Shown here in pieces: positions 16,493 through 56,539 of a DNA stretch of 64,000 nt. How positions within the stretch are numbered: the first letter of the stretch is position 1; each line of letters begins with the position of its first letter. The stretch comes from Chelatococcus sp. YT9 (GTDB lineage Bacteria; Pseudomonadota; Alphaproteobacteria; Rhizobiales; Beijerinckiaceae). The position numbers and the translations under genes were made by a program. The stretch covers positions 170,637 to 234,636 of the forward strand of contig NZ_JAHBRW010000002.1 of the NCBI RefSeq assembly GCF_018398315.1, given 5' to 3'. Below the pieces are notes generated by a model, which was given only the letters and a program-made list of their open reading frames with translations, searched no databases and was not told where the DNA came from.

Positions 16493-17344
16493 ATGCGCCT
16501 TGGCTTGGCCGAGATTGGCGGCGTGCGCGAGCTGGTTGCTCTTCGCGATGGCGTTCTCGTTCGCCCTGGTAGCGAGCTACCAACCGATCCGCTCAAGATC
16601 CTCACCGACACATCCCTCAGAGCAAGGGCCAGCACGGCGATCGCAAATGCGGCCGCCCTTGATCCCGCATCAGTGCGATTACTGCCCCCATTGGCTGAAT
16701 TCGGAAAGATCATTTGCGTGGGCCTGAACTACGCAGATCACGCGGCTGAGAGCCCCTATGATCGCCCCAAGTTTCCCGTGTTCTTCCTGCGCGTGGATAC
16801 GGGAATCATCGGCCCTAACGACCCGATCATACGTCCGTTGATTTCTGATCATCTCGACTTTGAAGCCGAAATGGCGATTGTTCTCGGGAGCGGCGGGCGA
16901 CGGATCCCTGAAGAACAAGCGCTTCGTCATGTCGCCGCCTATACGGTGTTCAACGATGGCTCGATCCGTGATTGGCAGTTCAAGGGACCGCAATGGACGT
17001 TGGGCAAGAACTTTGACAATACAGCTCCCATCGGCCCGTTCCTCGTTTCCTCCGATGAGGTACCATTGGGTGGAAAGGGCTTGCGAATTACCACCCGCCT
17101 CAACGGTGAAATCGTGCAGGACGCCAATACTGACGACCTTCTTTTCCCAATTCCCGAGCTGATCGCGCGCATATCAGAGGCGATGACTCTCAAACCAGGC
17201 GACATTATTGTCACCGGAACTCCGGCGGGCGTAGGTTTCGCCCGTAAACCGCCACTATTCATGAAAGCCGGAGACAACTGCGAAGTGGAAGTCGAGGGCA
17301 TTGGCAAGCTCGTCAATCCGATCGTCGATGAGGCCGCGCCGTGA
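16493..17344 (+). CDS. Fumarylacetoacetate hydrolase family protein
   Basis: Metal-dependent hydrolase, decarboxylase or tautomerase of 283 residues. The family core is clear: IICVGLNYADHAAES near residue 70, FFLRVDTGIIGPNDPI, the acidic metal site around DFEAEMAIVLG, and NDGSIRDWQ near residue 155, then the GxxLVTGTP-like block IIVTGTPAGVGFARKPPLFMK. The N-terminal 60 residues are the small domain seen in YcgM/MhpD-like members. It has GGGAGG before the ATG, is first in the operon, and overlaps the HyuA start by 4 bp (GTGA). It probably cleaves or decarboxylates the ring-opened product made by HyuAB. Confidence 0.88.
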   Translation: MRLGLAEIGGVRELVALRDGVLVRPGSELPTDPLKILTDTSLRARASTAIANAAALDPASVRLLPPLAEFGKIICVGLNYADHAAESPYDRPKFPVFFLRVDTGIIGPNDPIIRPLISDHLDFEAEMAIVLGSGGRRIPEEQALRHVAAYTVFNDGSIRDWQFKGPQWTLGKNFDNTAPIGPFLVSSDEVPLGGKGLRITTRLNGEIVQDANTDDLLFPIPELIARISEAMTLKPGDIIVTGTPAGVGFARKPPLFMKAGDNCEVEVEGIGKLVNPIVDEAAP

Positions 17345-40793: not shown

Positions 40794-41870
40794 GTGACCT
40801 CCGACGTCGAATTCCGCAACGTCTCCAAGTTCTTCGGCGCGTCTGCCGCGGTCGACGACATATCCTTCTCCGTGCCAGCCGGCAGTTTCTTCTCTCTTCT
40901 TGGTCCCTCTGGTTGCGGCAAGTCGACGACATTACGCATGACGAGCGGGTTCGAGTTCCCGGATCGCGGTGATATACTGATCGCGGGCGAGAACATGGCC
41001 GGCATCGCAGCCTACCGGCGCCCAACCAACATGGTCTTCCAGCGCTGGGCGCTCTTTCCGCATATGACGGTGTTCGACAACATCGCCTTTGGACTGAGCG
41101 TCGAGCGACAACCACGGGACGTCATTCATCGGCGCGTCGGCGAAGCGCTCGAGCTGGTGGGGCTGACACAGTTTGCGACACGCAAGCCGCGGCAGTTATC
41201 CGGCGGGCAGATGCAACGCGTCGCGTTGGCCCGCGCTCTCGTGAAGCGTCCCAAAGTTCTTCTATTGGATGAGCCGCTCGGCGCGCTTGATCTCAAGCTG
41301 CGCATGCAAATGCAACTGGAGTTAAAACGCATTCAGCGTGAGGTCGGTACCACCTTCATCTATGTCACCCACGATCAAGGTGAAGCCCTGACCATGTCTG
41401 ACCAAATCGCGGTGATGCACAACGGCCGCATCGACCAGCTGGGCTCTCCGCAAGAGATTTACGATCATCCTGCCACGCGTTTTGTCGCCGGCTTCATTGG
41501 GAATGCCAATCTTCTCCCGGTCGCGGTAGCTGACCGCGGGGGTGGGACGGCAACGGTGTCATTGGATGGCTTTACGTTCCCCACGCATATCGCCCAAGAA
41601 CCGACGGGCGACAGAGGCTGGATCGTCATCCGCTATGAACGTATCCGTATGGGCAAGGCGGCTGGCAGCATGCCGATCCGCACGCAGGCGCGCGTGCGTG
41701 ATGCGATCTTCGCCGGCTCGACCGTACACTACGTCATGGCTATCGAGCCTTCCGGCACCGAGATCACGGTTGAGGCAGGCCATGATGGTCTATCCAGCCC
41801 TCTTACGCAGGGCAGTCTGGTCGATATCGGCTGGGAGCCGGGCGTGACGCGCCTGTTTGGCGATGTCTGA
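40794..41870 (+). CDS. ABC importer ATP-binding subunit, PotA-like
   Basis: 358-residue ATPase. Walker A is GPSGCGKST near residues 38-46, the Q-loop is FQRWALFPHM, the signature LSGGQMQRVALARAL lies near residue 134, Walker B is VLLLDEPLGALDL and the switch VTHDQGEA. A C-terminal TOBE-like domain follows. The start is GTG with AAGGA seven bases upstream. Its stop overlaps the next permease start by 8 bp. Together with the flanking genes it forms a complete PotFGHI-type importer, the only importer in the right half of the window with its own ATPase. Confidence 0.9.
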   Translation: MTSDVEFRNVSKFFGASAAVDDISFSVPAGSFFSLLGPSGCGKSTTLRMTSGFEFPDRGDILIAGENMAGIAAYRRPTNMVFQRWALFPHMTVFDNIAFGLSVERQPRDVIHRRVGEALELVGLTQFATRKPRQLSGGQMQRVALARALVKRPKVLLLDEPLGALDLKLRMQMQLELKRIQREVGTTFIYVTHDQGEALTMSDQIAVMHNGRIDQLGSPQEIYDHPATRFVAGFIGNANLLPVAVADRGGGTATVSLDGFTFPTHIAQEPTGDRGWIVIRYERIRMGKAAGSMPIRTQARVRDAIFAGSTVHYVMAIEPSGTEITVEAGHDGLSSPLTQGSLVDIGWEPGVTRLFGDV

Positions 41871-42768
41871 AGCCGCGATGGTCAATCTCCCTGCGCGCAA
41901 GATCGTTGCGCCGAGCGCCCGTCGGGAATGGCGCAGGCGCGCAATGCCGTGGCTCATGTTGGCGCCGAGTTTGGCGTTGATGCTCTATGCCTTCGTCCTC
42001 CCGATGCTCACCTTCTTCGAGTATTCGTTCTATACATTTCGGCGCGGGAAGCTCATCGATGAATTCTCCCTCGCGACCTACCGTCGTTTTCTGTTTGACG
42101 CCTACTATCAGACGATCGTTCTCGATACGCTGTGGATGGCTGCGCTGACAACGGCACTTGCGCTCGCCATAGGCTATCCGCTTGCCTTTGCGCTGTGGCG
42201 CCTCGAGCGCCCGTGGATGAAGCGGTGGCTTTCACTGATCATCTTCTCGCCTATCATCGTCAGCGTCGTCGTGCGTTCCTATGGCTGGATCGTCCTGCTG
42301 GCGGATCAGGGGCCCGTCAACTGGCTGTTGAGAACGACCGGCCTTACAGCAGAGCCTGTAACGCTCGTCTTCAACCTGGCCGGCGTCGTCCTGAGCCTTT
42401 CCCATGTGTTCCTGCCTTTCGTCGTCTTTCCCATCTATTCTTCGATGAGCCGGATCGATCCGGCCCTGCGCGAGGCAGCCATGGATCTCGGAGCAGGCTG
42501 GTTACGCACGTTCCGCAGCATCACCCTGCCTCTTACTTTGCCTGGGGTTGTCGCGGCCGTACAGATCGCCTTCACACTGGCGCTCGGTGCGTTCGTCACT
42601 CCGGCCATGCTGGGGGGCGGACGTGTGCTTGTTCTCCCACTTCAGGTCTACAACGCCACGGCCGAGATCAATTGGCCGGTCGCTGCAGTCGGCGGGCTCG
42701 TTCTCCTGGTGATTGCGATCATTGTGGTCGCACTCTGCAACCGTCTTCTCAAATATAGCGAGGCGTGA
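41863..42768 (+). CDS. ABC importer permease, PotB-like
   Basis: Inner-membrane permease of 301 residues. A basic cytosolic N-terminus (RKIVAPSARREWRRRA) leads into the first span (PWLMLAPSLALMLYAFVLPM); about six spans follow. The coupling loop ALREAAMDLGAGWLRTFRSITLPL is near residue 205. The ATG at 41863 overlaps the ATPase stop; another ATG at 41878 is possible and has no better ribosome site. The next permease starts 1 bp after its stop. Confidence 0.88.
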   Translation: MSEAAMVNLPARKIVAPSARREWRRRAMPWLMLAPSLALMLYAFVLPMLTFFEYSFYTFRRGKLIDEFSLATYRRFLFDAYYQTIVLDTLWMAALTTALALAIGYPLAFALWRLERPWMKRWLSLIIFSPIIVSVVVRSYGWIVLLADQGPVNWLLRTTGLTAEPVTLVFNLAGVVLSLSHVFLPFVVFPIYSSMSRIDPALREAAMDLGAGWLRTFRSITLPLTLPGVVAAVQIAFTLALGAFVTPAMLGGGRVLVLPLQVYNATAEINWPVAAVGGLVLLVIAIIVVALCNRLLKYSEA

Positions 42769-42769
42769 G

Positions 42770-43609
42770 ATGCAGGCTGCAGCATCCGGCATTCGAATAC
42801 GCTATGTATTTCTGTGGACATTCACAGTTGTCGGCATTCTGTTCATCATTGCGCCGCTCTTCGTGGTGGTCGTGAACTCGTTTTCGGCGGTCGCCTACAA
42901 CGTCTTCCCACCCGAAGGCTTCTCGTTGCGCTGGTATCAGAACCTTGCGGGCCAAGCCGCATTCTACGCCGGCGCCTGGCGCAGCCTTGTCCTTGCGACG
43001 TTGGCCACGCTTGGCGCCCTGATCATCGGCACCATGGCCGGCTACGCCCTCGTGCGCTATCGCCTGCCTATGCCGAATGTGGTGAAGGCCTTCATGCTGT
43101 CGCCCATCGTCATGCCGAAGATCGTGCTCGGCGTTGCGCTGTTCATGTTCTTCGTGCGCATCGGCACTCTAGGCGGATATTCAAGCCTCCTCTTCACCCA
43201 TATGCTCGTCGTCCTGCCCTTTGTGATCTCCCTGATCACGGCGGCGCTGTTCAATTTTGACTGGACGCTGCAGGAGGCGGCGATGGATCTCGGCGCGGGT
43301 CCGCTGGAGACTTTCTTCCGCGTGATCCTGCCGGAGATCTCCGTTTCGGTCGTCGTCGCAGGCGTTTTCGCGTTCGTAACGTCATTCGATCAGGTCGAGA
43401 CGACGCTTTTCCTTGTCAGGCCGGGCGACAATACACTGCCCGTTGAAATGTTTCTCTATCTGCAGAAATGGCAGGATCCGACGATCGCCGCGTTGTCGAC
43501 GGTTCTCATACTGTTCGCCGTCGCCATCATCGGCGGGCTCAGCCTTGTTCTGCGCAATCAGAAGCTGCCCCTTGATGTCGGCGGCTCTCGGAAGGAAACC
43601 ACCGCATGA
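42770..43609 (+). CDS. ABC importer permease, PotC-like
   Basis: Second permease, 279 residues, with six predicted spans beginning IRYVFLWTFTVVGILFIIAPLFVVV and the coupling loop LQEAAMDLGAGPLETFFRVILP near residue 167. The ATG at 42770 is chosen since it follows the previous stop by one base and gives a normal N-terminus; the frame upstream only shadows the PotB-like gene. The stop overlaps the start of the peptidase-like gene by 4 bp (ATGA), tying transport to intracellular hydrolysis. Confidence 0.88.
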   Translation: MQAAASGIRIRYVFLWTFTVVGILFIIAPLFVVVVNSFSAVAYNVFPPEGFSLRWYQNLAGQAAFYAGAWRSLVLATLATLGALIIGTMAGYALVRYRLPMPNVVKAFMLSPIVMPKIVLGVALFMFFVRIGTLGGYSSLLFTHMLVVLPFVISLITAALFNFDWTLQEAAMDLGAGPLETFFRVILPEISVSVVVAGVFAFVTSFDQVETTLFLVRPGDNTLPVEMFLYLQKWQDPTIAALSTVLILFAVAIIGGLSLVLRNQKLPLDVGGSRKETTA

Positions 43610-45366
43610 GCGCCCCCTCACTGGAAGCCGTCATCGCGGCCGTCGATGGCCCCCTGATGATGCAACACATGCGCCTTTTCGATCGCTATACGAAGGTGGC
43701 CGGCACACCAACCGAGCTCGACAGCCTACGCTACTGCGAAGAGCAGATGAAATCCTTCGGTTTCGCCACGGAGATCATTCTCCACGACGCCTATATCAGT
43801 ATTCCGCTCAAAGGTGAGGTTATTCTCGACGGCCGCGCGCTTCGGGCGATCACCCATTCCTTCTCGCGGTCATCCCCGGTCGGGGGCCTTACGGCTGAAG
43901 TCACCGATCTCGGGGCTGGAACAGCCGCTGATTTCGCGCGCCAGAATGTCGCCGGCAAGGTTGTCCTGATTGACGGCATTGCGAACCCCGCAGCAGCGCT
44001 ACGTGCGTCGCAGGCGGGCGCTGCCGGCCAGATCCATGTCAGCCCGCACGAACATCTTCACGAGATGTGCGTATCGTCCGTCTGGGGGAGCCCCACACAT
44101 GAGACGGTCGACCGCCTACCAAGGACTGTGATCGTCCAGATCCCCTTCGATGAGGGCCAAGAGCTGCGTCAGCGGCTGAAAGACAATCCTCACCTCGAAG
44201 TTATCCTGCACGCCGAAGTTGACACCGGATGGCGCAAGACGCCGATACTCGTGGCCGACCTGATGACGGGGTCAAATCCGCAGGAGCAGCCTTACGTGTT
44301 CTACACGGGACATCACGACACCTGGTATTACGGCGTCATGGACAACGGCGGCGCCAACGCGACCATGATGGAGGTCTCCCGTATAGCGGCCCAGCATTGC
44401 GATATATGGCGACGGGGGCTGCGCGTTGTTTTCTGGTCTGGACATTCGCAGGGCCGATATTCCAGTTCATCGTGGTATTCGGATGAGCATTGGGAAGATA
44501 TCGACAAGCGCGCGCTGGTCCATGTCAATGTCGACTCGACCGGCGGCCTGGGAAACACAGTTGTCGGAGACACGAGCTGCGCAGCCGAGCTGCGCCCGCT
44601 CGCGGCCGAAGCGGTTATGGCGCACAGCGGCCAGACCTTCAACAACAGACGACAGAGCAGAGCTGGCGATCAGTCTTTCTGGGGCATCGGCGTGCCTGGA
44701 ATTTTCCAGAACATGAGCGAACAGCCGGCCTCGCCGGAAGCGGAAACGAATGCCTCGGCCTCTGTCTTCGGCGGCGGCAACCGGGTGGGCCACGGTACGG
44801 GATGGTGGTGGCATAATCCGGCCGATACCCTGGACAAGATCGATGAGGCAATCCTCGTGCGCGACACAAAGATCTACATGCACGCTGTCTGGCGGCTGCT
44901 CACCGACAGGGTCCTGCCTCTCGATTACGCGGAGCATGCCCGCTATCTCACGGCGACCCTGCGCGAGTTACAGGACGCGGCTGGCGCCAGCTTTGATCTC
45001 AGCTTGCTGCTATCTCGCGCCGGCCGTCTGGAACAGCTGGCCAGCCGGCTCAAGGCCAAGTCAGAGGCGGCAAGCGATGCAGAAGCCGCTGCCATCAACG
45101 AGACGCTCAAGGCGGTGTCACGGGCGCTCGTGCCGGTGGATTACACGGAGAAAGACCGCTTCACCCAGGATCCCGCCCTCGCGCAGCAGGCTTACCCTGG
45201 CCTGCAACCACTCCGGCAGTTCGCAGCGCTCGCGCCCGAAAGTGACGCGGCGAAATTCCTGCACGTGGGCATGATGCGGGCCCGCAATCGTACCGCGTTG
45301 GCCCTGGCCGATGCCATCAAAGCTATCGAAACCTGCCTTCAAAACCTTGGCGCCACTGCGCAATAG
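43606..45366 (+). CDS. M28 family peptidase homologue with a PA-like insert and altered catalytic Glu pair
   Basis: 586-residue cytosolic protein related to zinc aminopeptidases and glutamate carboxypeptidase. A PA-like domain occupies about residues 85-170. Metal-ligand positions match the family at His236 (GHHDTW), Asp246 (MDNGGA), Asp in NVDSTGG and His in WHNPADT. The adjacent Glu-Glu that supply the general base and a bridging ligand are replaced by His280-Ser281 in WSGHSQGRYSSSSWY. This looks like a distinct subfamily rather than a damaged gene, since the surrounding sequence is intact. It overlaps the importer by 4 bp, so its substrate is probably the imported compound. Confidence 0.82.
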   Translation: MSAPSLEAVIAAVDGPLMMQHMRLFDRYTKVAGTPTELDSLRYCEEQMKSFGFATEIILHDAYISIPLKGEVILDGRALRAITHSFSRSSPVGGLTAEVTDLGAGTAADFARQNVAGKVVLIDGIANPAAALRASQAGAAGQIHVSPHEHLHEMCVSSVWGSPTHETVDRLPRTVIVQIPFDEGQELRQRLKDNPHLEVILHAEVDTGWRKTPILVADLMTGSNPQEQPYVFYTGHHDTWYYGVMDNGGANATMMEVSRIAAQHCDIWRRGLRVVFWSGHSQGRYSSSSWYSDEHWEDIDKRALVHVNVDSTGGLGNTVVGDTSCAAELRPLAAEAVMAHSGQTFNNRRQSRAGDQSFWGIGVPGIFQNMSEQPASPEAETNASASVFGGGNRVGHGTGWWWHNPADTLDKIDEAILVRDTKIYMHAVWRLLTDRVLPLDYAEHARYLTATLRELQDAAGASFDLSLLLSRAGRLEQLASRLKAKSEAASDAEAAAINETLKAVSRALVPVDYTEKDRFTQDPALAQQAYPGLQPLRQFAALAPESDAAKFLHVGMMRARNRTALALADAIKAIETCLQNLGATAQ

Positions 45367-47224: not shown

Positions 47225-47260
47225 CCGATCCTAAGGTCGATATATCATATATAGGATCGG
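47225..47260 (+). promoter_or_regulatory. GATATATCATATAT operator site 1, enclosed in an inverted repeat
   Basis: The 14-bp core GATATATCATATAT lies at 47239-47252, 28 bp before the sulfurtransferase GTG. The final base of the 15-bp palindrome is A rather than C. The site is enclosed by a perfect 9-bp inverted repeat CCGATCCTA (47225-47233) and TAGGATCGG (47252-47260). The same core occurs at sites 2 and 3. I see no convincing -35 box here. The putative binder is the GntR protein at 48954. Confidence 0.7.
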
Positions 47261-47280
47261 CCGGCATTGAGAGGCGTGGT

Positions 47281-48153
47281 GTGGAAACCTTTCTCGTGGA
47301 GCCTTCGTGGCTGGAAACGAAGCTCGGCTCCCATGATCTAGCGCTGTTGGATTGCGCTTGGTTTGCGCCGGAGGCGGGCAAAACCGGCCTCGACGCGTTC
47401 CGCGCGGAGCATATTCCAACGGCCCGCCACTTCGACCTCAATACCGCCTCGGATGGCGCATCACCCTATCCAAACATGATGCCGGATCCGACACAGTTTT
47501 CCGCCATCGTCGGCGCGCTCGGAATCGACAATGATATGACGGTCGTGATCTACGATGCGGGCTATGTCTCGGCGCGCGTGTGGTGGATGTTTCACCGCTT
47601 TGGTCATGACAATGTCTTCATTCTCGACGGCGGCTTGCGCCGCTGGAAGGCGGAAGGCAGGGCCCTTGAAAGCGGCGATGCCGATGCGGCCATCGCACGA
47701 ACCTTCGAGGCAAAGCCGCCTGTCACTGACATCGCAGGCTGGGTGGATGTCGCCATCGCACTGAGTGAAGGCACCGCACAGGTCGTCGATGCACGCATGC
47801 CCGACCGCTTCTCCGGCGCGCTTCCCTCCGGCTATCCGGGACTGGCGCCGGGGCACATGCCCGGCGCCATCAATGTGCCCTGGACTTCGATGATGCGCCA
47901 GGAGGGTGACTTCGGCTTCATCTCGCCCGAGGAGGCAGACGCGGCTTTCCGCAAAGCTGGCGTCGATCCAGACCAGCCAATCATTGCGACCTGTGGCTCT
48001 GGTGTGACGGCGGCGGTCCTCGCCTTCCAGCTGCTACGCATGGGCAAGACGGATTGGACGATCTACGATGGTTCGTGGAACGAGTGGGGACGCCGTGACG
48101 ATCTGCCCAAGGCCGCGGTCGATCCGGCGAACGACGTCGCCAGCACGATCTGA
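47281..48153 (+). CDS. Sulfurtransferase, 3-mercaptopyruvate/thiosulfate type (two rhodanese domains)
   Basis: 290-residue cytosolic protein with tandem rhodanese domains. The N-terminal domain (about 5-125) is the inactive type, with IYDAGYVSARVWW where active domains have Cys. The C-terminal domain (about 150-280) has the active loop CGSGVTA near residue 239, the SseA-like motif CG[ST]GVTA of 3-mercaptopyruvate sulfurtransferases. It would move sulfane sulfur from 3-mercaptopyruvate, the transamination product of cysteine, to an acceptor. The GTG at 47281 has GAGAGG six bases upstream. An operator shared with the GntR-controlled genes lies just upstream. Confidence 0.88.
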   Translation: METFLVEPSWLETKLGSHDLALLDCAWFAPEAGKTGLDAFRAEHIPTARHFDLNTASDGASPYPNMMPDPTQFSAIVGALGIDNDMTVVIYDAGYVSARVWWMFHRFGHDNVFILDGGLRRWKAEGRALESGDADAAIARTFEAKPPVTDIAGWVDVAIALSEGTAQVVDARMPDRFSGALPSGYPGLAPGHMPGAINVPWTSMMRQEGDFGFISPEEADAAFRKAGVDPDQPIIATCGSGVTAAVLAFQLLRMGKTDWTIYDGSWNEWGRRDDLPKAAVDPANDVASTI

Positions 48154-48182
48154 TCACCCTGATTTCGAGCCGAGGATAAGCC

Positions 48183-48947
48183 ATGCGTGCTTCCTTCGAT
48201 CATCTCATTGTCCTCGTGCAAGATCTGGACACGGCTGCACGCGACTTCGAACGCTTGGGCTTTACCGTGGCCGAGCGGCACGATGCCATCGCCGGCTCCA
48301 TGCGTAATCGCTTCATATGCCTCGCCGACGGCTCCTACCTGCTGCTCAGTGCCTTTGCGGATCCCGGGGCGGCGGAGAAGCACCGCCTCGGTCCCCTGCT
48401 GCAAAGGGGCGAAGGCTGGGCCGACTATTCTCTCGTCGTCGAGGGGATCGAAGAAATCACAGCGCGCCTTCAGTCGCTACATGTGCCAACACGAGGGCCA
48501 GTTCAGGTTTCCAACTCGGTCGCGAGTGGCGACCGCTGGTCGCTGGACCTCTTGATGACCGGCATCGGCGCGGGCGGCGATGACGCACTGCCCTTCATTA
48601 TCGAGGATCGCGGGGGTCGCGCGCATCGCATTCCCGCAGTGACGCAACACCGCAACGGGGCAGTGGGCATTGCGGGCATCAGGGTCGCAACCTCCTCGGT
48701 GGCCCCAGTTATCGCAACGTTGCGGGGCATCCTCGGAGAGACGATCTCGCTATCGGAGACCGAAGTTCATGGTCGTCCGGCGACACGCATCGGTTTCGGT
48801 GCCGGCTGGATCGACGTGCTTGAAGATCTATCGGTCAACAAAGGCAGCCCTGGCCTCTTCGAGGCAGTCATCGTAACCACGATGCCCCAGCCAGAGCGCG
48901 ATCCTGCTTTGACGCATGGAGCAACGATCCGTTTCGCGTCCCGGTGA
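48183..48947 (+). CDS. VOC/glyoxalase-like family protein
   Basis: 254-residue protein beginning RASFDHLIVLVQDLDTAARDFERLGFTVAERH, the start of the glyoxalase-like_3 type of VOC proteins, with a second beta-alpha repeat from about residue 155 (VGIAGIRVATSSVAPVIATLRGILG). A metal His is visible in FDHL; others are uncertain. It lies 29 bp after the sulfurtransferase gene and probably shares its transcript, ending 6 bp from the convergent GntR gene. Activity unknown; a role in thiol or keto-acid chemistry would suit the neighbours. Confidence 0.8.
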   Translation: MRASFDHLIVLVQDLDTAARDFERLGFTVAERHDAIAGSMRNRFICLADGSYLLLSAFADPGAAEKHRLGPLLQRGEGWADYSLVVEGIEEITARLQSLHVPTRGPVQVSNSVASGDRWSLDLLMTGIGAGGDDALPFIIEDRGGRAHRIPAVTQHRNGAVGIAGIRVATSSVAPVIATLRGILGETISLSETEVHGRPATRIGFGAGWIDVLEDLSVNKGSPGLFEAVIVTTMPQPERDPALTHGATIRFASR

Positions 48948-48953
48948 AACGGC

Positions 48954-49640
48954 TCACGCCGCGCTGGAACTCTCGCGCGCGTTGATAGCTGCGAGGACAC
49001 GCTTGGCACCATCATCGATCGCGTGTTCGATCGCCGCGCGTGCGGCATCGGCGGACCGACGATGCAACGCCTCGAGCAATTCGTTGTAGTTGTTATGGAT
49101 TGTGAGAGGCCTGCGTTCCTCGGGATAGAGATAGTTGAAGCCCGGACCTGCTCGCAACCACAAGGTCTCGATCACGCTGAGCAAGGTCGGCATCTCGGCA
49201 GCTCCGTAGAGGACGAACCGAAACTCCTTGTTTCTCATGAGCGCCGAATGAGGATCACCTGCAGACTTCGCAGCCAGATACTGAGCGAGTAGCTCCTGCA
49301 TTCGCGCAATATCCGTGGCAGCTATGCGCAGTGCGGCCTTCGCCGCCGCCAGCCCCTCAACAGCCTTACGGACCTCTGAGAGCTCCAAATATTGTGCGGC
49401 ACTCAGGGCGGGCACGCGGAAGGACTGCGCAGGCTCGGCAGTCAGGATGCCGGAGGCGGCAAATCGCACTAGCGCCTCGCGCACCGGTGTAATGCTCATC
49501 CCGAGGGTATCGGCGAGTTCCTTGGTGACAAGCCGAGTGCCGGGCTCCAGGCGCCCCTCGACCAAGGCATTGCGCAATTCTTCCTCGACATAGCCAACGA
49601 GGCTCTTGCGGGGGGCCGCGTTGAAGGGACCGATGCTCAC
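48954..49640 (-). CDS. GntR family regulator, FCD subfamily
   Basis: 228-residue regulator. The winged helix lies at about residues 10-75 (VGYVEEELRNALVEGRLEPG, LADTLGMSITPVREALVRFA) and the FCD sensor follows (SEVRKAVEGLAAAKAA, RNKEFRFVLYGAAEMP, IHNNYNELLEAL). The GTG at 49640 is chosen: it has GAGGG just upstream, and the longer alternative from 49724 would begin inside the operator palindrome. It is divergent from the peptide-class importer. The three GATATATCATATAT sites nearby make it the best candidate for a local regulator of cysteine-related genes. Confidence 0.88.
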   Translation of the reverse strand: MSIGPFNAAPRKSLVGYVEEELRNALVEGRLEPGTRLVTKELADTLGMSITPVREALVRFAASGILTAEPAQSFRVPALSAAQYLELSEVRKAVEGLAAAKAALRIAATDIARMQELLAQYLAAKSAGDPHSALMRNKEFRFVLYGAAEMPTLLSVIETLWLRAGPGFNYLYPEERRPLTIHNNYNELLEALHRRSADAARAAIEHAIDDGAKRVLAAINARESSSAA

Positions 49641-49702
49641 AACACCCTCATTGTTCGGATGGTTGCCTGAATTTTTACCATGCCCCTCTGAGCGCTCACA
49701 CC

Positions 49703-49731
49703 TTGTGCATGTCGGATATATCATATATCGT
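49703..49731 (+). promoter_or_regulatory. Promoter with GATATATCATATATC operator site 2
   Basis: A perfect 15-bp palindrome GATATAT-C-ATATATC occupies 49715-49729, between the GntR gene (start 49640) and the importer gene (start 49801). TTGTGC (49703-49708) and TATCGT (49726-49731) with a 17-bp spacer form a plausible plus-strand promoter with the palindrome in the spacer and -10 box, the layout of simple repression. It shares a 14-bp core with sites 1 and 3. Confidence 0.75.
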
Positions 49732-49800
49732 CAGGACACTCACAGACTTTTCTTCCTTTGTCGCGCAGCTCCTGCAGCCACTAGAGAAAAGGTCACCGTC

Positions 49801-51288
49801 ATGAGACAACTGAAAGCGTTAGCCTTGGCGGCAGCCATTTTATTGCCGGGATCAGCGGCATGGGCCCAAGCCAGCCAGATCACGATTGCACGGCCGGTTT
49901 CGACCACCGCGATGGACCCCGGGTTCCTGCGCGAGGCGGCCACAATCGTCGACAACATCTTCGACACGCTTGTCATGCGTGACAAGGCGATGCAGCTCGT
50001 CCCAGGGCTCGCCGAATCCTGGAAATCGATCGACGACACCACATGGGAATTCAAGCTCCGCCAGGGCGTCAAATTCCACAACGGCGAGGATTTCAACGCC
50101 GAGGCGGTAAAGTTCACGATTGACCGCATCATAGACCCGGCCGCCAAATCCCCGACGCTCTCCTACATCAGGACTGTGGCGGGCGTGGATGTGATCGATC
50201 CCTACACGGTACGCATCAGGACAACCGAGCCAGATCCCCTCCTGCCCACCCGGATGAGCCGCTATCCGGCCTATATCGTGCCGCCCGCCTATGTGAAGCA
50301 GGTCGGCAACGACGGCTTCGCGTCGAAGCCCGTCGGCACCGGCCCCTACCAACTCACTGCTTTCATTCCCGACCAGCACGTCATCCTGAAGGCCAATCCG
50401 GGCTATTGGCGGGGCAAGCCGTCGATCGATCAGGTGACTTGGCGTGCCATTCCCGACGGCACGGCCCGCATCACGGCACTCGTCACCGGCGAGGTGGATC
50501 TGATCGAGGGCGTGCCCGTCGATCTCGCGCCGATGATCTCGGCAAGCTCCGATGCCGACCTCGTGCAGGTGAAGAACGGCGGCCTGACGATCTATCTCGG
50601 GCTCGTCATGAAGGACAAGCCGCTCGACAACGTCAAGGTCCGCCAAGCCCTCAACATGGCGATCGATCGCAAGGGCATCGTCGACAATATCCTGAAGGGT
50701 ATGGCGACGCCGAAGGGAACGCAGGTTGGTCCTGCCGATTTCGGCTATCTCGACATTCCTCCTCCAGCCTATGATCCCCAGAAGGCCAAGGCGCTCCTCG
50801 CGGAGGCCGGCTTCCCGGACGGCTTTCCCATCAAGATGCAGTCGACCCTGCGCTACATGAAGGACGGCGAGGTCGCGCAGGCGATCGCCCAACAGTTCGG
50901 CGACATCGGCGTGAAGACCGACCAGGAGGTTCTGGACTGGTCCGTCTATGTGCAGCAGGTGCCGCGCAAAGGCCCGATCTTCATGCTCGGATGGGGCTCG
51001 ACGCAGACCCTTGATGCTGATGCGGCCGTCTATGCGATCCTGCGGACGGGTGAGCCCTACTCCACGGCGTCCATCCCGGAGCTCGACAAGCTCCTCGACG
51101 AAAGCCGCAAGATCGTCGATCCCGAGGCGCGCAAGACAGTTCTGCACGATATCCAGAAGCTCGCCGCCGAACAGGTTCCGCTGATCACGCTCTATCAGGA
51201 GGATTCCCTCTATGGCAAAGCCAAGACCCTCAACTTCGAAGGGCGACCTGACGCGCGCATCCCGGTCTTCGAGATGAGCAAGCGCTGA
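49801..51288 (+). CDS. Family-5 ABC binding protein (peptide/nickel/opine class)
   Basis: 495-residue periplasmic binding protein of the DppA/OppA family. A Sec signal occupies residues 1-22 (LALAAAILLPGSAAWA, cleavage before QASQ). Family marks are IFDTLVMRDKAMQLVPGLAESWKSI, FKLRQGVKFHNGEDFNAEAVKF near residues 83-104, and VGTGPYQLTAFIPDQHVILKANPGYW near 178-203. The ATG at 49801 is required by the signal peptide. The two permease genes follow directly, but no DppD/DppF-type ATPases are present. Its promoter carries operator site 2. The ligand could be a peptide or an acylated amino acid. Confidence 0.88.
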   Translation: MRQLKALALAAAILLPGSAAWAQASQITIARPVSTTAMDPGFLREAATIVDNIFDTLVMRDKAMQLVPGLAESWKSIDDTTWEFKLRQGVKFHNGEDFNAEAVKFTIDRIIDPAAKSPTLSYIRTVAGVDVIDPYTVRIRTTEPDPLLPTRMSRYPAYIVPPAYVKQVGNDGFASKPVGTGPYQLTAFIPDQHVILKANPGYWRGKPSIDQVTWRAIPDGTARITALVTGEVDLIEGVPVDLAPMISASSDADLVQVKNGGLTIYLGLVMKDKPLDNVKVRQALNMAIDRKGIVDNILKGMATPKGTQVGPADFGYLDIPPPAYDPQKAKALLAEAGFPDGFPIKMQSTLRYMKDGEVAQAIAQQFGDIGVKTDQEVLDWSVYVQQVPRKGPIFMLGWGSTQTLDADAAVYAILRTGEPYSTASIPELDKLLDESRKIVDPEARKTVLHDIQKLAAEQVPLITLYQEDSLYGKAKTLNFEGRPDARIPVFEMSKR

Positions 51289-51293
51289 ACGCG

Positions 51294-52139
51294 ATGACGC
51301 GGTTCTGGAACGCCGGCCGGAATGCGGACGCCCTCTTCGCCATCAGTCTTCTCGTCGCAGTTTTTGCGCTCGCCATTCTGGTGCCGCTCCTCTGGCCGGT
51401 CGACCCGATCCGTGGCCAGATCACGGCGACGTTCAAACCGCCGATGAGTGTCGTGGGGGGGCAGTTGCACCCCCTTGGCACGGACCAGCTCGGGCGCGAT
51501 CTCCTGGCCCGGCTCGGCCTCGGCACAGCAATTTCCCTCGGGATCGTTCTCTTCGCTTCCGTCATCGCCGTGGTCCTCGGTACGCTGCTCGGCATGATCG
51601 CGGGCTATTTCGGCGGCTGGCTGGACGCGGTGATCATGCGCGCCGTCGACATCCAGCTCGCAATCCCCTTCATTCTGCTCATCCTACTGATCGTCGCGGT
51701 GGTCGGCCCCTCGATGCTCAATCTCATCGTGGTGCTCGGTGTCACCGGCTGGGCGATCTTTGCACGGGTTGCTCGCGCCAGGACGCTCGAGGTGCGGGAT
51801 CTCGAGTATATCGATGCATCGCGGGCCATCGGCCTCTCGGACTTCGCGGTGCTCCTGCGGCATGTGCTGCCGAATATTGCGGGTTCGCAGATCGTCCTTG
51901 TCACGCTCGACCTTCCGCGACTCATCATCCTGGAGGCCTCTGTCGGTTTCCTCGGCCTCGGCGTGCAGCCGCCGACGCCGACGCTCGGCAATCTGATCGG
52001 CGAAGGGCGCTCCTTCATTCTTCTTGCCAACTGGCTCGTGCTTTACCCCGGCCTTGTCATCGGCGGTCTCGTCGTCGGCTGTAATCTCCTGGGAGACTGG
52101 CTGGTGCGCCGCGCCGACCGAAGGGGCGCCACGACGTGA
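51294..52139 (+). CDS. Peptide-class ABC permease, DppC-like
   Basis: 281-residue permease of the Dpp/Opp family. It has an N-terminal span (near residues 14-35), the periplasmic GTDQLGRDLLARLGLGTAISLGIVL block typical of DppC near residues 62-86, and the coupling loop EYIDASRAIGLSDFAVLLRHVLPN near residue 168. The end GLGVQPPTPTLGNLIGEGRSF is also DppC-like. It is placed before the DppB-like gene, opposite to the usual dppBC order, and overlaps it by 4 bp (GTGA). Confidence 0.88.
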   Translation: MTRFWNAGRNADALFAISLLVAVFALAILVPLLWPVDPIRGQITATFKPPMSVVGGQLHPLGTDQLGRDLLARLGLGTAISLGIVLFASVIAVVLGTLLGMIAGYFGGWLDAVIMRAVDIQLAIPFILLILLIVAVVGPSMLNLIVVLGVTGWAIFARVARARTLEVRDLEYIDASRAIGLSDFAVLLRHVLPNIAGSQIVLVTLDLPRLIILEASVGFLGLGVQPPTPTLGNLIGEGRSFILLANWLVLYPGLVIGGLVVGCNLLGDWLVRRADRRGATT

Positions 52140-53056
52140 AGGCACTGATCTTCATCGCCAATCGCGCCGCGCAGGGCGTCATCGTGCTGCTCGGCGTGTC
52201 GGCGATCGTCTTCTTCGCGCTTTTCCTCACGGGCGACCCCGCTGCCCTGATGATGCCGCCCGATGCCTCGCGCGCCGAGATCGAAGCCTTCCGCCAGGCG
52301 ATGGGCTTCAATGATCCGATCTGGGTTCAATACGGCCGCTTCCTCGGCGGCGTCTTTTCCGGCGAGTTCGGCAATTCGCTCCGCTTCCAGCGTCCGGCGT
52401 TCGACCTGCTGATCGAGCGCCTTCCCGCCACGGCGCTTCTCGCCTGCGCCGCGCTCCTGTGGAGCTCGCTGCTCGGCTTCCTTCTCGGCACCATCGCTGC
52501 CGTGCGCAAGGACAGCCCCATCGATTTCGCCATCCGCGTCATCTCCCTGCTGGGGCAAGCCATCCCGGTGTTCTGGCTGGCCCTCCTTCTGATCATCGTC
52601 TTCTCGCTCAATCTGCGTTGGCTGCCGAGCAGCGGCATCGGCACCTTCAAGCAGCTGATCATGCCGTCGATCGCGCTCGGCGCCTATTACCTCAGCGCGA
52701 TCACGCGTCTGGTGCGCGCCAGCCTGATCGAGGTGCTGGGCGAGCACTACATTCGCACGGCCCGCGCGAAGGGCGTCAAGGGCTGGTCCCTCGTCGTCCA
52801 CCATGCCCTGCGCAACGCCCTGATCCCGGTGATCACCGTACAGGGGATATACTTTGCATCACTGCTTGGCGGCGCGCTCGTGACCGAGATCATCTTCGCC
52901 TGGCCGGGCATCGGGCGGCTCGCGGTGGAATCTATCCAGAACCGCGATTTTCCCGTGGTTCAGGCGGTGGTCTTGTTCGCCGCCTTCGTGTTTGTGGTCG
53001 TGAACTTTCTTGTCGACCTCGCCTATCTCTGGCTCAACCCGAGGATCAGGCTGTGA
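52136..53056 (+). CDS. Peptide-class ABC permease, DppB-like
   Basis: 306-residue permease with an N-terminal span (VIVLLGVSAIVFFALFLTGDP), a DppB-type periplasmic segment ending GEFGNSLRFQRPAFDLL, the coupling loop YIRTARAKGVKGWSLVVHHALRNALIP near residues 202-228, and the FAWPGIGRLAVESIQNRDFPVVQ signature near 262. The start is a GTG that overlaps the DppC-like stop. The hydrolase gene that follows overlaps its stop by 4 bp, so the substrate enters and meets that enzyme directly. Confidence 0.88.
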   Translation: MKALIFIANRAAQGVIVLLGVSAIVFFALFLTGDPAALMMPPDASRAEIEAFRQAMGFNDPIWVQYGRFLGGVFSGEFGNSLRFQRPAFDLLIERLPATALLACAALLWSSLLGFLLGTIAAVRKDSPIDFAIRVISLLGQAIPVFWLALLLIIVFSLNLRWLPSSGIGTFKQLIMPSIALGAYYLSAITRLVRASLIEVLGEHYIRTARAKGVKGWSLVVHHALRNALIPVITVQGIYFASLLGGALVTEIIFAWPGIGRLAVESIQNRDFPVVQAVVLFAAFVFVVVNFLVDLAYLWLNPRIRL

Positions 53057-54420
53057 CCCGGCCGCTCTCCCCTCTGGCCCGGAATGCCCTCAACCTTGCC
53101 GAGGCATGGTGCCGCGTTCCGTCGGTGCGGGGGAACGATCAGGCGCTTGACCGCCAAGCAGCGGCCATCAGCCACTGGCTCAGGCACGAGCTCGGCGCGG
53201 AGATCATCAACGACCGCCGCCGGGACGGCCGGCCGGCGGTCGTCCACGCGCGGCTCGACATCGGCGCGGCCCATACGGTCATCCTCTACAACATGTACGA
53301 CGTGATGCCCGCCGAGCCCGCCGGCTGGTCTGTTGACCCCTTCAGCGGCGGCATCGTTGATCTGCCGGAGGTCGGCGCCTGTTTCGTGGCACGCGGCGCG
53401 GAGAACAACAAGGGTCCGCTGGCCGGCATGCTGGCCGTCCTGAAACAGATGGCCGACAGCGGCGCCCTGGCCGTCAATGTCGAGATCCTCGTGGAGGGCG
53501 AGGAGGAAAGCGGCAGCGGCGCGCTGCGCGCCTATCTCCTCGACCCCACCTGCCCGGTCCGCGCCAGCATCGGCGGCCTGTTCCCGTCCTTCTGCGAATA
53601 TGGCGGAGGCCCGCCGCGCGTCTATCTCGGCTTCTCCGGCATCGCAAAAGGCGAGATCCGCGTGGAAGGCGGCGCGTGGGGAGGCCCGCGTGCGGCCATC
53701 CACTCCAGCAATGCGCCGTGGATCGCCAATCCAGCGAGCCGTCTCATTGCGGCCCTTGCTCTGTTCGGCCGATCCCCGACCGGCGAACTCGACAGGATCA
53801 CCCTCGATGCGGAAGCCCGCGCCATCGTCGCCGAGCTCGCGGCAAGCTTCGACCCCCAGGCGGAGCTTAGCTTCCGCAAGACGGAGCGCTTCGCGCTGGA
53901 CGGCGATGCGGAAGCCTTGCTGACGCATGTGCTGACAACCGCCTCAGCCACCATCAACTCGCTCGCGACGGAGCCAACCGCGGGTGATGCCGTCATCCCG
54001 CATGCCGCGCGCGCGGCCTTCGACCTGCGGTGTCCGCCTTCCCTCGACCCCGCCCGCTATCTCGCGGCCTTTCGCGAGACGTTGCAGACAGCCGGCCTCG
54101 CCGGTGTCTCCCTTGACGTTGCCGATGCCTATCCCGGTACGCGGTTCAGCCGGGACGCGGAAGGGGTCGGCGCCTTGCTCGCCGCCTATGGCGCAACGTC
54201 AGTACCGCCGCAGATCTGGCCTTGGGCGATCGGCGCGGCCCCCGGCTATGCCTTTGCACGCCACGCGGATTCGTTTCTCATCGGCGGTGCGGGGTGCGGC
54301 GGCAACGCCCATGGCATCGATGAATTCATGACGCTGGAAGGCTTCGAGCGTTTCCTTACCTCCATCGCGATCTGGCTGGACGAGATGGCAAAGGTGCCCG
54401 CGCCGAGGACGAGCCCATGA
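53053..54420 (+). CDS. M20 family metallohydrolase-like protein with altered metal ligands
   Basis: 455-residue protein related to M20 dipeptidases and deacylases. The GTG at 53053 is coupled to the permease stop; the frame is open far upstream but there it shadows the permease. The Glu pair is kept in EGEEESGSG (150-151) and a final His in GGNAHGIDEF. The first metal His of GHxD is Met81 (YNMYDVMP), the bridging Asp of the DDKG motif is Asn118 (AENNKGPL), and the third Asp is not apparent. Either the subfamily uses other ligands or it is not a classical dizinc peptidase. It overlaps the next gene by 4 bp. Confidence 0.82.
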   Translation: MTRPLSPLARNALNLAEAWCRVPSVRGNDQALDRQAAAISHWLRHELGAEIINDRRRDGRPAVVHARLDIGAAHTVILYNMYDVMPAEPAGWSVDPFSGGIVDLPEVGACFVARGAENNKGPLAGMLAVLKQMADSGALAVNVEILVEGEEESGSGALRAYLLDPTCPVRASIGGLFPSFCEYGGGPPRVYLGFSGIAKGEIRVEGGAWGGPRAAIHSSNAPWIANPASRLIAALALFGRSPTGELDRITLDAEARAIVAELAASFDPQAELSFRKTERFALDGDAEALLTHVLTTASATINSLATEPTAGDAVIPHAARAAFDLRCPPSLDPARYLAAFRETLQTAGLAGVSLDVADAYPGTRFSRDAEGVGALLAAYGATSVPPQIWPWAIGAAPGYAFARHADSFLIGGAGCGGNAHGIDEFMTLEGFERFLTSIAIWLDEMAKVPAPRTSP

Positions 54421-55403
54421 TCACGTTGCGCTATCTCTCCCGCGCCGATGTCGTCGCAGCCGGCGGCGGCGACTGGCCGCTGGCGCTCGCCGATATTCGC
54501 GAAGCCACCCGCCTGCTGCGGGCGGGAGAGGCCGGCATGGAGGCCGAGAGCGTCATGCCGATGGGCGGCGATCCGCGCGCCAAGGCCTACGGTCTGCCCG
54601 CCTTCGTCGGCGGCCGTTATGATGCGGTGGGCCTCAAATGGGCCGTGCATCTGCCGGAAAGCCGGGGCGATCTCCCCAGCATCACCAACACCACCTTCAT
54701 CAATCGCCTGAGCGACGGCCGTCCGCTCGGGCTGATCGAAAGCGCCCTGCTGACGCGGATGCGGACAGCGGCCGTCTCCGCGCTCGCCATGGAGAGCCTT
54801 CTGCCGCGGCCGCCCGGCCGCATCGCCCTTCTCGGCGCCGGCGCCCAGGCGAAGGCTCACCTCGCCATGGTGTTGGCGCTGTTTCCGTCCGTCGGCGAAA
54901 TCCGGCTCTGGAACCGGAGCGCGGACAAGCTGGATGCGCTTCTTGCGGACACGCCCTCTCCCGCCGGCGTGGCGCTCGTCCGTTGCACGGCGATCGCAGA
55001 TGCCATCGCCGAGGCCGATGTCGTCCTGAGCTGCACGACCGCGCCGGAGCCGATCCTCGATGACGACGCTGTGCGCCCCGGCCGGCTGATCGTGCAGGTC
55101 GGCTATCACGAGGTGTCCTTTGCCGCGATCGCCGCCAGCGACGTGGTGGCGGTCGACCTGTGGGGGGACTTTGCCGAAAAGAGCGCCAAGAGCCTCTTCC
55201 AGATGTACCGCGCGGGGCAGTTCACGCCTGACCGGGTAGCGGCCGACCTCGCCGCGCTGGTGGTTGACGGCTGGCGGCCGCCGGCCGGAGCCTCGCTCTA
55301 TTTTTCCAGCTTCGGCCTCAACCTGTTCGACATCGCGCTCGCCGCCCGCGTGCTGTGCCGGGCAGAGGAGGCGGATATCGGAACGGCCCTGCCGTATCTG
55401 TAG
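54417..55403 (+). CDS. Ornithine cyclodeaminase/mu-crystallin family protein
   Basis: 328-residue NAD(P)-dependent enzyme. Typical blocks are LRYLSRADVVAAGG at the start, VGLKWAVHLPESRGDLPSI near residues 71-89, LIESALLTRMRTAAVSALAMESL near 104-126, and the Rossmann motif IALLGAGAQAKAHLAMV near residue 137. Known members act as ornithine cyclodeaminase, alanine dehydrogenase, ketimine reductase (mu-crystallin, including sulfur-containing cyclic ketimines) or SbnB-like dehydrogenase. Neighbouring cysteine-related enzymes make a sulfur ketimine reductase worth testing, but this is inference. It ends 50 bp before operator site 3. Confidence 0.85.
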   Translation: MITLRYLSRADVVAAGGGDWPLALADIREATRLLRAGEAGMEAESVMPMGGDPRAKAYGLPAFVGGRYDAVGLKWAVHLPESRGDLPSITNTTFINRLSDGRPLGLIESALLTRMRTAAVSALAMESLLPRPPGRIALLGAGAQAKAHLAMVLALFPSVGEIRLWNRSADKLDALLADTPSPAGVALVRCTAIADAIAEADVVLSCTTAPEPILDDDAVRPGRLIVQVGYHEVSFAAIAASDVVAVDLWGDFAEKSAKSLFQMYRAGQFTPDRVAADLAALVVDGWRPPAGASLYFSSFGLNLFDIALAARVLCRAEEADIGTALPYL

Positions 55404-55452
55404 GGAGATCCCCAACCAAAGGACAGTGCCCATTCCGAAGGCCACCCTGTCT

Positions 55453-55480
55453 TTGACAGGGGAGATATATGATATATCCT
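55453..55480 (+). promoter_or_regulatory. Promoter with GATATATgATATATC operator site 3
   Basis: TTGACA (55453-55458) and TATCCT (55475-55480) with a 16-bp spacer form a good promoter. The spacer and -10 box contain the perfect 15-bp palindrome GATATAT-G-ATATATC at 55464-55478, whose reverse complement holds the same 14-bp core as sites 1 and 2. The desulfhydrase-like ATG is 57 bp downstream. The geometry matches site 2 closely, supporting common control. Confidence 0.78.
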
Positions 55481-55534: not shown

Positions 55535-56539
55535 ATGAAACTCGAAGACATTCCGCGCCTCTCCCTCGGCTTTCTCCCGACGCCGATTGAAAAGCTCCCG
55601 CGCCTCAGCGCCGAATACGGCATCGACCTCTCAGTCAAGCGCGATGACTTCACGGGCTTCGGCGGGGGCGGCAACAAGGTCCGGAAGCTAGAGTTTCTGA
55701 TGGCCGATGCGGTCGCCCAGGATGTCAAGGTGCTGATCACGACGGGTGGCCACCAGTCCAACCACGCGCGGATGACCGCGGCGGCGGCGCGCAAATTCGG
55801 GATGAAGCCTATTCTCGTGCTGCGCGGCAACAGCCCGGCGGTGCTGCAGGGCAATCTCCTGCTTGATCATCTTTTCGGGGCCGAAATCGATTTCCTCGAT
55901 CCGGACGCTTATTTCACCGAGATCAATCCGCGCATGCAGTATCACGCGGACCAGGCCACGGCCCGTGGCGAGAAGCCCTATATCATTCCCCTCGGCGGGG
56001 CGAGCGCACTCGGCGCGATGGGCTATGTCGCGGCGGTGAAGGAACTCGCAGCGCAATATGCGGCCACTGGGGAAGCCGCGCCCGATCTCATCGTCGCGCC
56101 GGTCGGCTCGGGCGGCACGCTCGCCGGTCTTCTCATCGGCTGTGCGCTGTTCTGGCCGGACACCAAGGTCGCCGGCATAGCGGTCAGCGGCAGCGCCGTG
56201 CCCTTCTCCGAGCGCATCGCCGTCATGGCCAATGCCGGCGCCGAATTGCTCGATTTCGACAAGCGCTTCGAGCCGGCCGATATCCGCATCGAGAATGGCT
56301 ACGTGGGGGCGGGCTACGCGATCCCCAGCCCGGAGGGCAACGCCGCGATCACCAAGGCCGCCCGCAGCGAGGGCATGCTGCTCGACCCGGTCTATACCGG
56401 CAAGGCCGTCGCCGGCCTGCTCGACTGCGTGACGCGCGGCTCGATTGCGAAGGGCAGCAAGGTCCTGTTCGTCCATTGCGGCGGATCCCCCGCCCTCTTC
56501 CCGCATGCCGAGCTGCTGACGCAGGACCGCGCCAGCTGA
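55535..56539 (+). CDS. D-cysteine desulfhydrase/ACC deaminase family PLP enzyme
   Basis: 334-residue pyridoxal-phosphate enzyme that, if D-cysteine specific, yields pyruvate, ammonia and H2S. The PLP Lys is in GGGGNKVRKLEFL near residues 45-57, followed by TTGGHQSNHARMTAAAARKFG near 71-91, the PLP phosphate loop VGSGGTLAGLL near 190, and a C-terminal LFVHCGGSPALF. The resemblance is to DcyD more than to ACC deaminase: it has KRDD where ACC deaminases usually have KREDCNSG. The ATG at 55535 is chosen; an ATG at 55469 falls inside the operator. It has its own promoter with operator site 3. Confidence 0.85.
   Translation: MKLEDIPRLSLGFLPTPIEKLPRLSAEYGIDLSVKRDDFTGFGGGGNKVRKLEFLMADAVAQDVKVLITTGGHQSNHARMTAAAARKFGMKPILVLRGNSPAVLQGNLLLDHLFGAEIDFLDPDAYFTEINPRMQYHADQATARGEKPYIIPLGGASALGAMGYVAAVKELAAQYAATGEAAPDLIVAPVGSGGTLAGLLIGCALFWPDTKVAGIAVSGSAVPFSERIAVMANAGAELLDFDKRFEPADIRIENGYVGAGYAIPSPEGNAAITKAARSEGMLLDPVYTGKAVAGLLDCVTRGSIAKGSKVLFVHCGGSPALFPHAELLTQDRAS

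Follow-up and report, generated by a model that had tools for sequence, protein, structure and literature searches.

A candidate GntR regulon with an A/T-rich operator, probably serving a cysteine-derived compound, in Chelatococcus sp. YT9

In the local regulons of the FadR subfamily of GntR regulators, as PMC4494728 describes them, an FCD-domain regulator is encoded divergently from its operon, with a single palindrome between the two. The sites carry TKGT and ACMA boxes, in which GT and AC usually stand three bases apart; exceptions are listed there, and extra half-sites 7–12 nt away are described. The same layout was found in a 64,000-nucleotide stretch of Chelatococcus sp. YT9 (contig NZ_JAHBRW010000002.1, positions 170,637 to 234,636; the whole stretch is called the window here), where a GntR/FCD gene lies divergent from an importer operon with one palindrome between them. 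In contrast to the consensus of those sites, the operator has no GT/AC pair, and related loci often show overlapping sites 7 bp apart. The words 'cysteine' and 'dipeptide' do not occur in the main text of PMC4494728. We propose, with a probability of roughly 0.7, that the GntR protein represses the uptake and desulfuration of a cysteine-derived compound, both its binding and the repression being predicted from sequence.

The operator and its promoters

It is highly probable that three transcription units of the window belong to a single regulon, controlled by the divergent GntR gene through a shared predicted operator, as the initial annotation had claimed. This claim is now strongly supported, since in other genomes the units form one operon or cassette and the operator recurs at units that have split off. 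The controlled promoters would be those of gntR and the divergent importer operon, of the sulfurtransferase-VOC unit and of the PALP gene. The features are as follows.

47239..47253, plus strand: operator 1, GATATATCATATATA, upstream of the sulfurtransferase-VOC unit (position weight matrix score 25.4)
47281..48153, plus strand: 3-mercaptopyruvate-sulfurtransferase-like protein with rhodanese domains and a CGSGVT loop (PF00581, 101.9 bits; NF008557, 242.6)
48183..48947, plus strand: VOC / glyoxalase-3-like protein (PF13468, 74.7 bits, cut-off 25.1)
48954..49640, minus strand: GntR/FCD (FadR-subfamily) regulator, the proposed repressor (PF00392, 51.6, cut-off 27; PF07729, 69.9, cut-off 24.3)
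49715..49729, no strand assigned: operator 2, GATATATCATATATC, common to the divergent gntR and importer operon
49801..51288, plus strand: solute-binding protein (SBP), family 5, peptide/opine/nickel class (PF00496, 333 bits)
51294..52139, plus strand: importer permease, DppC-like (PermC; PF00528)
52136..53056, plus strand: importer permease, DppB-like (PermB; PF00528, PF19300)
53053..54420, plus strand: M20-family protein with substituted metal-ligand positions (YNMYDVM, RGAENNKG; PF01546, 53.1 bits; 4mmo alignment)
54417..55403, plus strand: ornithine cyclodeaminase/mu-crystallin family protein (OCD), nearest SbnB (PF02423 above cut-off)
55464..55478, no strand assigned: operator 3, GATATATGATATATC, inside the PALP promoter
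55535..56539, plus strand: pyridoxal-phosphate (PLP)-dependent fold-type-II enzyme (PALP), TIGR01275 subfamily, signature GGHQSNHARM / HCGG

The initial annotation had described three copies of a 14-mer, each just upstream of a start codon, two of them within perfect 15-bp palindromes, and had judged them to be beyond chance; every part of this was confirmed. The 14-mer GATATATCATATAT lies at 47239-47252 (+), 49715-49728 (+) and 55465-55478 (-). Sites 2 and 3 are perfect 7+1+7 palindromes with an odd centre (GATATATSATATATC, GATATAT-S-ATATATC), and site 1 is one base off. Site 1 stands 27 nt before the sulfurtransferase GTG at 47281 and site 3 56 nt before the PALP ATG at 55535, while site 2 leaves 71 nt to the SBP ATG at 49801 and 74 nt to the GntR start at 49640 on the other strand. 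Allowing up to two mismatches, we obtained six strand matches at these three sites only, and 100 shuffles gave a mean of 0.02, none of them reaching six.

We then scanned the whole genome (6,741,503 bases, 7 contigs). The pattern GATATATSATATAT was found at three places, all within the window, and the pattern read backwards at none. With 0 or 1 mismatch to GATATATNATATATC only the three window sites appeared; two mismatches were found at four other places, and when up to three were allowed the forward matches numbered 60, with 30 in the control. A motif common across the genome had been named as the observation that would speak against the idea, and its rarity elsewhere answers this point. Among 297 evenly drawn genomes of the order, the exact 15-mer palindrome occurred in two, the genome itself and, at one site, G185, in which 8.4 kb of sequence around that site matched none of the cassette genes. 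A chance origin of the motif is rejected on the shuffles, the genome-wide rarity and the order-wide sample, and a wider regulon in the same genome is rejected at 0–1 mismatches to GATATATNATATATC. As a separate observation, overlapping versions of the operator with three mismatches lie outside the window at G000:C2:317189-317210, about 170 bp before a GntR match (317384-318001) that is 32% identical to the window GntR, with one TAG reported within the match; this may be a paralogous GntR using a sister operator.

Aligned at its centre, the operator reads TATA-N3-TATA where TKGT-N3-ACMA would be expected, and with TATA in both boxes the conserved GT/AC pair is absent. Since PMC4494728 lists other exceptions, such an operator is compatible with membership of the GntR protein in the FadR subfamily, to which its GntR helix-turn-helix and FCD domains, both above their Pfam gathering scores, assign it; the nearest NCBIfam model is PRK11414 (170.3 bits, below the 225 cut-off). 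When the FadR contacts given in PMC4494728 were mapped onto 66 GntR sequences, with FadR placed by eye, they partly fitted the loss of the G/C pair, which is only a hint. Position 40 is Pro in 66/66, position 59 is Ala in 59 and Ser in 7, and position 28 is Lys in 40 and Arg in 26; Arg at position 28 would favour G/C, opposite to the loss.

Two of the sites had also been placed between -35 and -10 boxes in the same geometry. A TTG lies 12 nt upstream of site 2 and 11 nt upstream of site 3, and therefore the statement is true of these two sites to within one base, but a consensus promoter was accepted properly at PALP only (TTGACA-16-TATCCT, 10/12), the match at SBP being a different and weak one (9/12). 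The scan found two promoters against 1.3 expected by chance, so that taken alone it is weak proof. In the related loci, TTG was found at -16 to -9 of the SBP sites in 36/59 (16/59 and 21/59 in two control ranges further upstream) and of the PALP sites in 10/27 (2/27 and 1/27), where -18/-17 was commoner. Taken together, the operator tends to lie in the expected spacer/-10 region, at no fixed distance. This is a typical place for a repressor, and a repressor bound there should block RNA polymerase.

The cassette and its operator in related loci

In order to compare the locus with its relatives, named genomes were scanned with four M20 query sequences, which gave 77 loci. One of these, L119, has a distant M20 with the other cassette genes unmatched and was excluded from later counts, so that the clustered set consists of 76 named loci and the window (n=77). 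M20 is present in all of them by construction, and the gene counts are lower bounds, because each flank was cut off at 10 kb or by the end of the contig. We found OCD in 76 (missing from L114 only), PermB in 72, PermC in 71, SBP in 68, GntR in 66, a fused ATPase DppDF in 65, PALP in 63, and a sulfurtransferase of type b in 54 and of type a, the window's type, in 8. GntR and SBP are again divergent neighbours in G070, G106 and G230, in the order GntR / SBP-C-B-M20-PALP-OCD-sulfurtransferase-ATPases.

The hosts include, among other alphaproteobacteria, Chelatococcus, Jiella, Aureimonas, Rhizobium, Neorhizobium, Paracoccus, Mameliella, Acetobacter, Bosea and Inquilinus, as well as many Enterobacterales, e.g. 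Pantoea, Rahnella and Cedecea. The M20 gene was found on six plasmids (E up to 1e-60), of which two are conjugative, and at E <1e-170 in 3 of 385 evenly sampled genomes of the class, the window's genome included. This patchy occurrence together with the plasmid copies points to horizontal spread. Two host labels may be wrong: L072, labelled Mycobacterium sp. KBS0706, resembles the Inquilinus locus L074 both in how its genes are ordered and in their identities, and L102, labelled Anaerolineae, resembles the alphaproteobacterial bin L079. Among the literature matches listed, the cassette is undescribed and neither full 15-mer occurs as text, most subscription papers lying outside the search.

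To follow the operator, we trained a matrix on 18 unique sites with ≤4 mismatches, all of them from the intergenic regions between GntR and SBP genes in 61 loci. At a score ≥18 it gave 151 matches over all loci, training sites included, against 0–3 for eight column-shuffled matrices. A gene was called detached, or first gene, rather than internal by a 140-nt gap rule, and an upstream site was counted at a score ≥16; among random 340-bp windows, 556/20,000 held one. Detached PALP genes, which lie outside the training set, had a site upstream in 26/27 (the miss being L063), whereas PALP genes labelled internal had one in 1/38. That single case is the window's own PALP, which lies 134 nt behind OCD, narrowly inside the 140-nt rule. 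Internal copies of PermC (0/66), PermB (0/72), OCD (0/72) and M20 (0/73) had none, and first-gene M20 had it in 3/5. First-gene DppD had a site in 40/55, but 22 of these 40 loci also have a detached PALP, so that one site may serve both; in loci without a detached PALP the count was 18/31. Among detached type-a sulfurtransferase genes, judged by hand, those of the window, L043, L044 and L076 have the site, L043 (Chelatococcus asaccharovorans) possessing all three sites of the window, and for type-b genes the 'first gene' label is unreliable because the match starts late. Sites occur in alpha- and gammaproteobacterial loci alike. Many loci are close relatives, and the counts therefore overstate the number of independent events. 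In L065, the longest reading frame of an SDR gene (19888-20619) carries an exact GATATATGATATATC at its 5' end (20601), which suggests that this gene is part of the regulon there.

These counts also bear on whether the 15-mer might instead belong to another regulator, or be an AT-rich promoter element that arose by chance, with the GntR gene a coincidental neighbour. A site scoring ≥14 stood before SBP in 62/67 loci with GntR within 11 kb against 1/5 loci without (72 loci; Fisher p ~6e-4, with no kinship correction and some of the sites having trained the matrix). The five GntR loci that lack it before SBP would fit a coincidence. Against this, the site accompanies the GntR cassette in two classes, is absent in 4/5 loci without GntR, and in this genome is unique to the region, and we regard a coincidence as very improbable. 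Control by the neighbouring GntR protein is the reading that we follow below.

The enzymes and the probable substrate

In the initial annotation the PALP protein was taken as D-cysteine desulfhydrase-like, and the substrate of the system as D-cysteine, an S-conjugate or a related thiol. The subfamily assignment stands: PALP scores 305.8 bits against the 289.4 cut-off of TIGR01275, the D-cysteine desulfhydrase subfamily. The specific enzyme does not, since PALP falls below the D-cysteine desulfhydrase equivalogs NF003030 (254/429), NF003032 (244.5/469) and NF003029 (233.5/610 bits), below the CuyA model NF052482 (316.8 vs 450 bits) and below the XcbE cut-off. It shares the subfamily and the QSNH and GGNK motifs with the D-cysteine desulfhydrases 7ysk and 4d8t, its nearest solved chains, and with the D-cysteate sulfo-lyase CuyA. 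In contrast, 4d8t and CuyA carry HTGG (7/7 in CuyA sequences above the cut-off) where PALP carries HCGG, and PALP has the motif GGHQSNHARM. In the PALP clade the His of GGHQSNHARM is kept in 62/63 and the Cys of HCGG in 60/63 (2 Thr, 1 gap), or 61/63 in another alignment. A sulfur compound is a likely substrate in view of TIGR01275 and the CGSGVT loop of the sulfurtransferase, although the chemistry is less certain than the regulon.

PALP was also considered as a 1-aminocyclopropane-1-carboxylate (ACC) deaminase and rejected. That enzyme is marked by E296 and L322, according to PMC4048297, and PALP has Thr and Cys there instead (VYTGK, HCGG; matched by motif), with 213.4 against 392 bits for TIGR01274. 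Among 10 'other' sequences, Glu was found at the first of these positions in 4/10 and Leu at the second in 4/10.

The sulfurtransferase had been called 3-mercaptopyruvate-type. CG[S/T]GVT is the active loop of 3-mercaptopyruvate sulfurtransferase, and CGSGVT is present in 8/8 type-a sequences, the window's included, but the score narrowly misses the cut-off of NF008557 (242.6 vs 250 bits). The commoner type b carries CHRGARA in 48/54, the other six having been missed by the search pattern, and with this loop the part of sulfur donor is weakened for most relatives.

The M20-family protein reaches the PF01546 gathering score (53.1 vs 24.6 bits) and, like the M20 peptidases Sso-CP2 (4mmo) and DUG1, keeps the Glu pair, the last His and the dimer-domain His. 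In the alignment to Sso-CP2, however, Met replaces the HxD histidine and Asn the bridging aspartate, and the region of the third ligand reads FPSxCEYGG. We take these columns to be metal ligands. In the family (n=77), 75 sequences have Met at the HxD position, one has Thr and one a gap; the bridging position is Asn in 77/77, the Cys-Glu of FPSxCEYGG is kept in 77/77, and the Glu pair and last His (76/77) are kept, counts that are biased because the locus scan used both motifs as patterns. L119, which came from that scan, has Met and Asn. In a pattern-free profile search both changes were present in L129 and L130, and the distant L131-L134 (27–30% identity) had Met in 4/4 and Asn in three, with Asp in one. 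The change from His to Met therefore belongs to a wider M20 lineage, which looks like a branch that lacks the classical metal site and has received no study. Deacylation or peptide cleavage, as first proposed, hence cannot be assumed, although membership of the family holds; with the usual ligands replaced, M20 hydrolysis is doubtful.

These residues also weigh on a second explanation, in which glutathione or a conjugate is imported, M20 acts as a Cys-Gly dipeptidase and PALP as a cysteine desulfhydrase or conjugate lyase. The best NCBIfam model of the SBP is the glutathione binder model GsiB, DUG1, a Cys-Gly dipeptidase, is among the M20 relatives, and a gamma-glutamyltranspeptidase gene lies at 37148-38929 (minus strand), about 8 kb from site 1. 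Yet the importer stays far below the equivalog cut-offs of GsiB (223.3/594), GsiC (256.2/463) and GsiD (187.6/484 bits), the M20 ligands are replaced, and the transpeptidase gene has no operator near it and was matched in 0 of the 77 loci searched. We consider glutathione or Cys-Gly catabolism improbable. Between this gene and the regulon, genes of an ABC importer type and one for an M28 peptidase lie within 40794-45366.

A nitrogen compound deserves somewhat more weight, though it too is unlikely: the same regulon would serve an opine-like or 2,3-diaminopropionate-type amino acid or a lactam, the sulfur being incidental. Fold-type-II PLP enzymes also eliminate amines, and PALP reaches none of the equivalog cut-offs. 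The best NCBIfam model of OCD is SbnB (TIGR03944), at 139.1 bits well under the 326.9 required, and its nearest chains are 4m54 ('putative ornithine cyclodeaminase'), which we take to be SbnB, and a mu-crystallin. The SBP, with 5u4o and 1uqw as nearest solved chains, also resembles agrocinopine and nickel binders. Lactamase-like HyuA and HyuB, nearest to caprolactamase subunits, occur in 21/77 and 18/77 loci; caprolactamase is an ATP-dependent lactam-opening enzyme, kin of oxoprolinase and hydantoinase (PMC6061476). On the other side, a rhodanese-type sulfurtransferase of one of two types is kept in 54/77 and 8/77 loci, and a BisC-like S/N-oxide reductase gene is present in 17, directly behind gntR in 13. 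The outline resembles ectoine utilisation, where fold-type-II PLP (EutB), OCD-family (EutC) and amide-cleaving enzymes (a deacylase) share one operon; the EutC model scores only 73.5 vs 471.65 bits, and the cassette adds a sulfurtransferase.

Other additions in the relatives are an FAD amine oxidase (20/77) and an SDR (22/77). When one protein of each extra gene was compared with NCBIfam, every best match stayed under its cut-off (BisC, 924.7 vs 1017.55). Together with the sulfurtransferase, the extra genes point to a sulfur amino acid that is cyclic or N-substituted and may be encountered as an S-oxide. We judge a cysteine-derived sulfur compound to be the more plausible substrate, and among such compounds an N-substituted or cyclic cysteine derivative is favoured. 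The window itself holds a HyuA-type (hydantoinase/oxoprolinase/caprolactamase) gene at 17341-19431, one of 18 such matches in the genome, whose best match to the cassette HyuA reaches 43% only.

The proposed pathway

For the uptake and desulfuration of a cysteine-derived compound under GntR control, we propose the following course, in which the inducer, the step order and the substrate are the inferred parts. Without inducer, a GntR dimer on the operator would keep the three promoters shut. A compound of the pathway, probably a carboxylate, would bind the FCD domain and release the repressor. The cysteine-derived compound would enter through the peptide-class ABC importer with a borrowed ATPase and be converted by the M20-like protein and the OCD/mu-crystallin enzyme; PALP would then cleave the C-S (or C-N) bond, and the sulfurtransferase may pass the released sulfur on. 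An ATPase partner under the same operator was looked for and rejected: the best fused DppDF relative, at 69% identity (G000:C1:2317539-2319368), is encoded on a different contig without the operator, and in the 16 kb around it (L166) no site scored above 14.7, the one with that score lying 3.4 kb beyond the gene.

Several observations weigh against this proposal. No cassette-type ATPase gene was seen adjoining the importer in the window. The substrate is deduced from enzyme families, among which PALP misses every equivalog, M20 hydrolysis is in doubt, and the type-b loop is not of mercaptopyruvate type, the CGSGVT enzyme being the window's type only. As to the regulator, 15/55 first-gene DppD lack a site, as do the detached type-a sulfurtransferase genes of L052 and L063; L046, L047, L054, L070 and L081, four of them Jiella, have GntR without a good SBP site, and L096 has a site before SBP with no GntR detected. 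The -35 distance varies among relatives, which bears out a fixed distance only in part, the loci have a common ancestry, and part of the SBP sites trained the matrix.

In summary, and more tentatively than the regulon itself, the locus may represent a previously undescribed regulon, spread horizontally, for the catabolism of a cyclic or N-substituted derivative of cysteine, with an A/T-only core in a FadR-type operator, a new clade of PALP C-S lyases and an enzyme of the M20 lineage that lacks the classical two-metal site and catalyses another reaction. The predicted operator clearly departs from the GT/AC rule of GntR operators, and as its sequence is known exactly, a simple reporter could find the substrate. 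This would assign a function to three groups, namely a PALP clade now filed under D-cysteine desulfhydrase, a clade of OCD proteins and the odd M20 lineage, which would be relevant to many soil and plant-associated bacteria.

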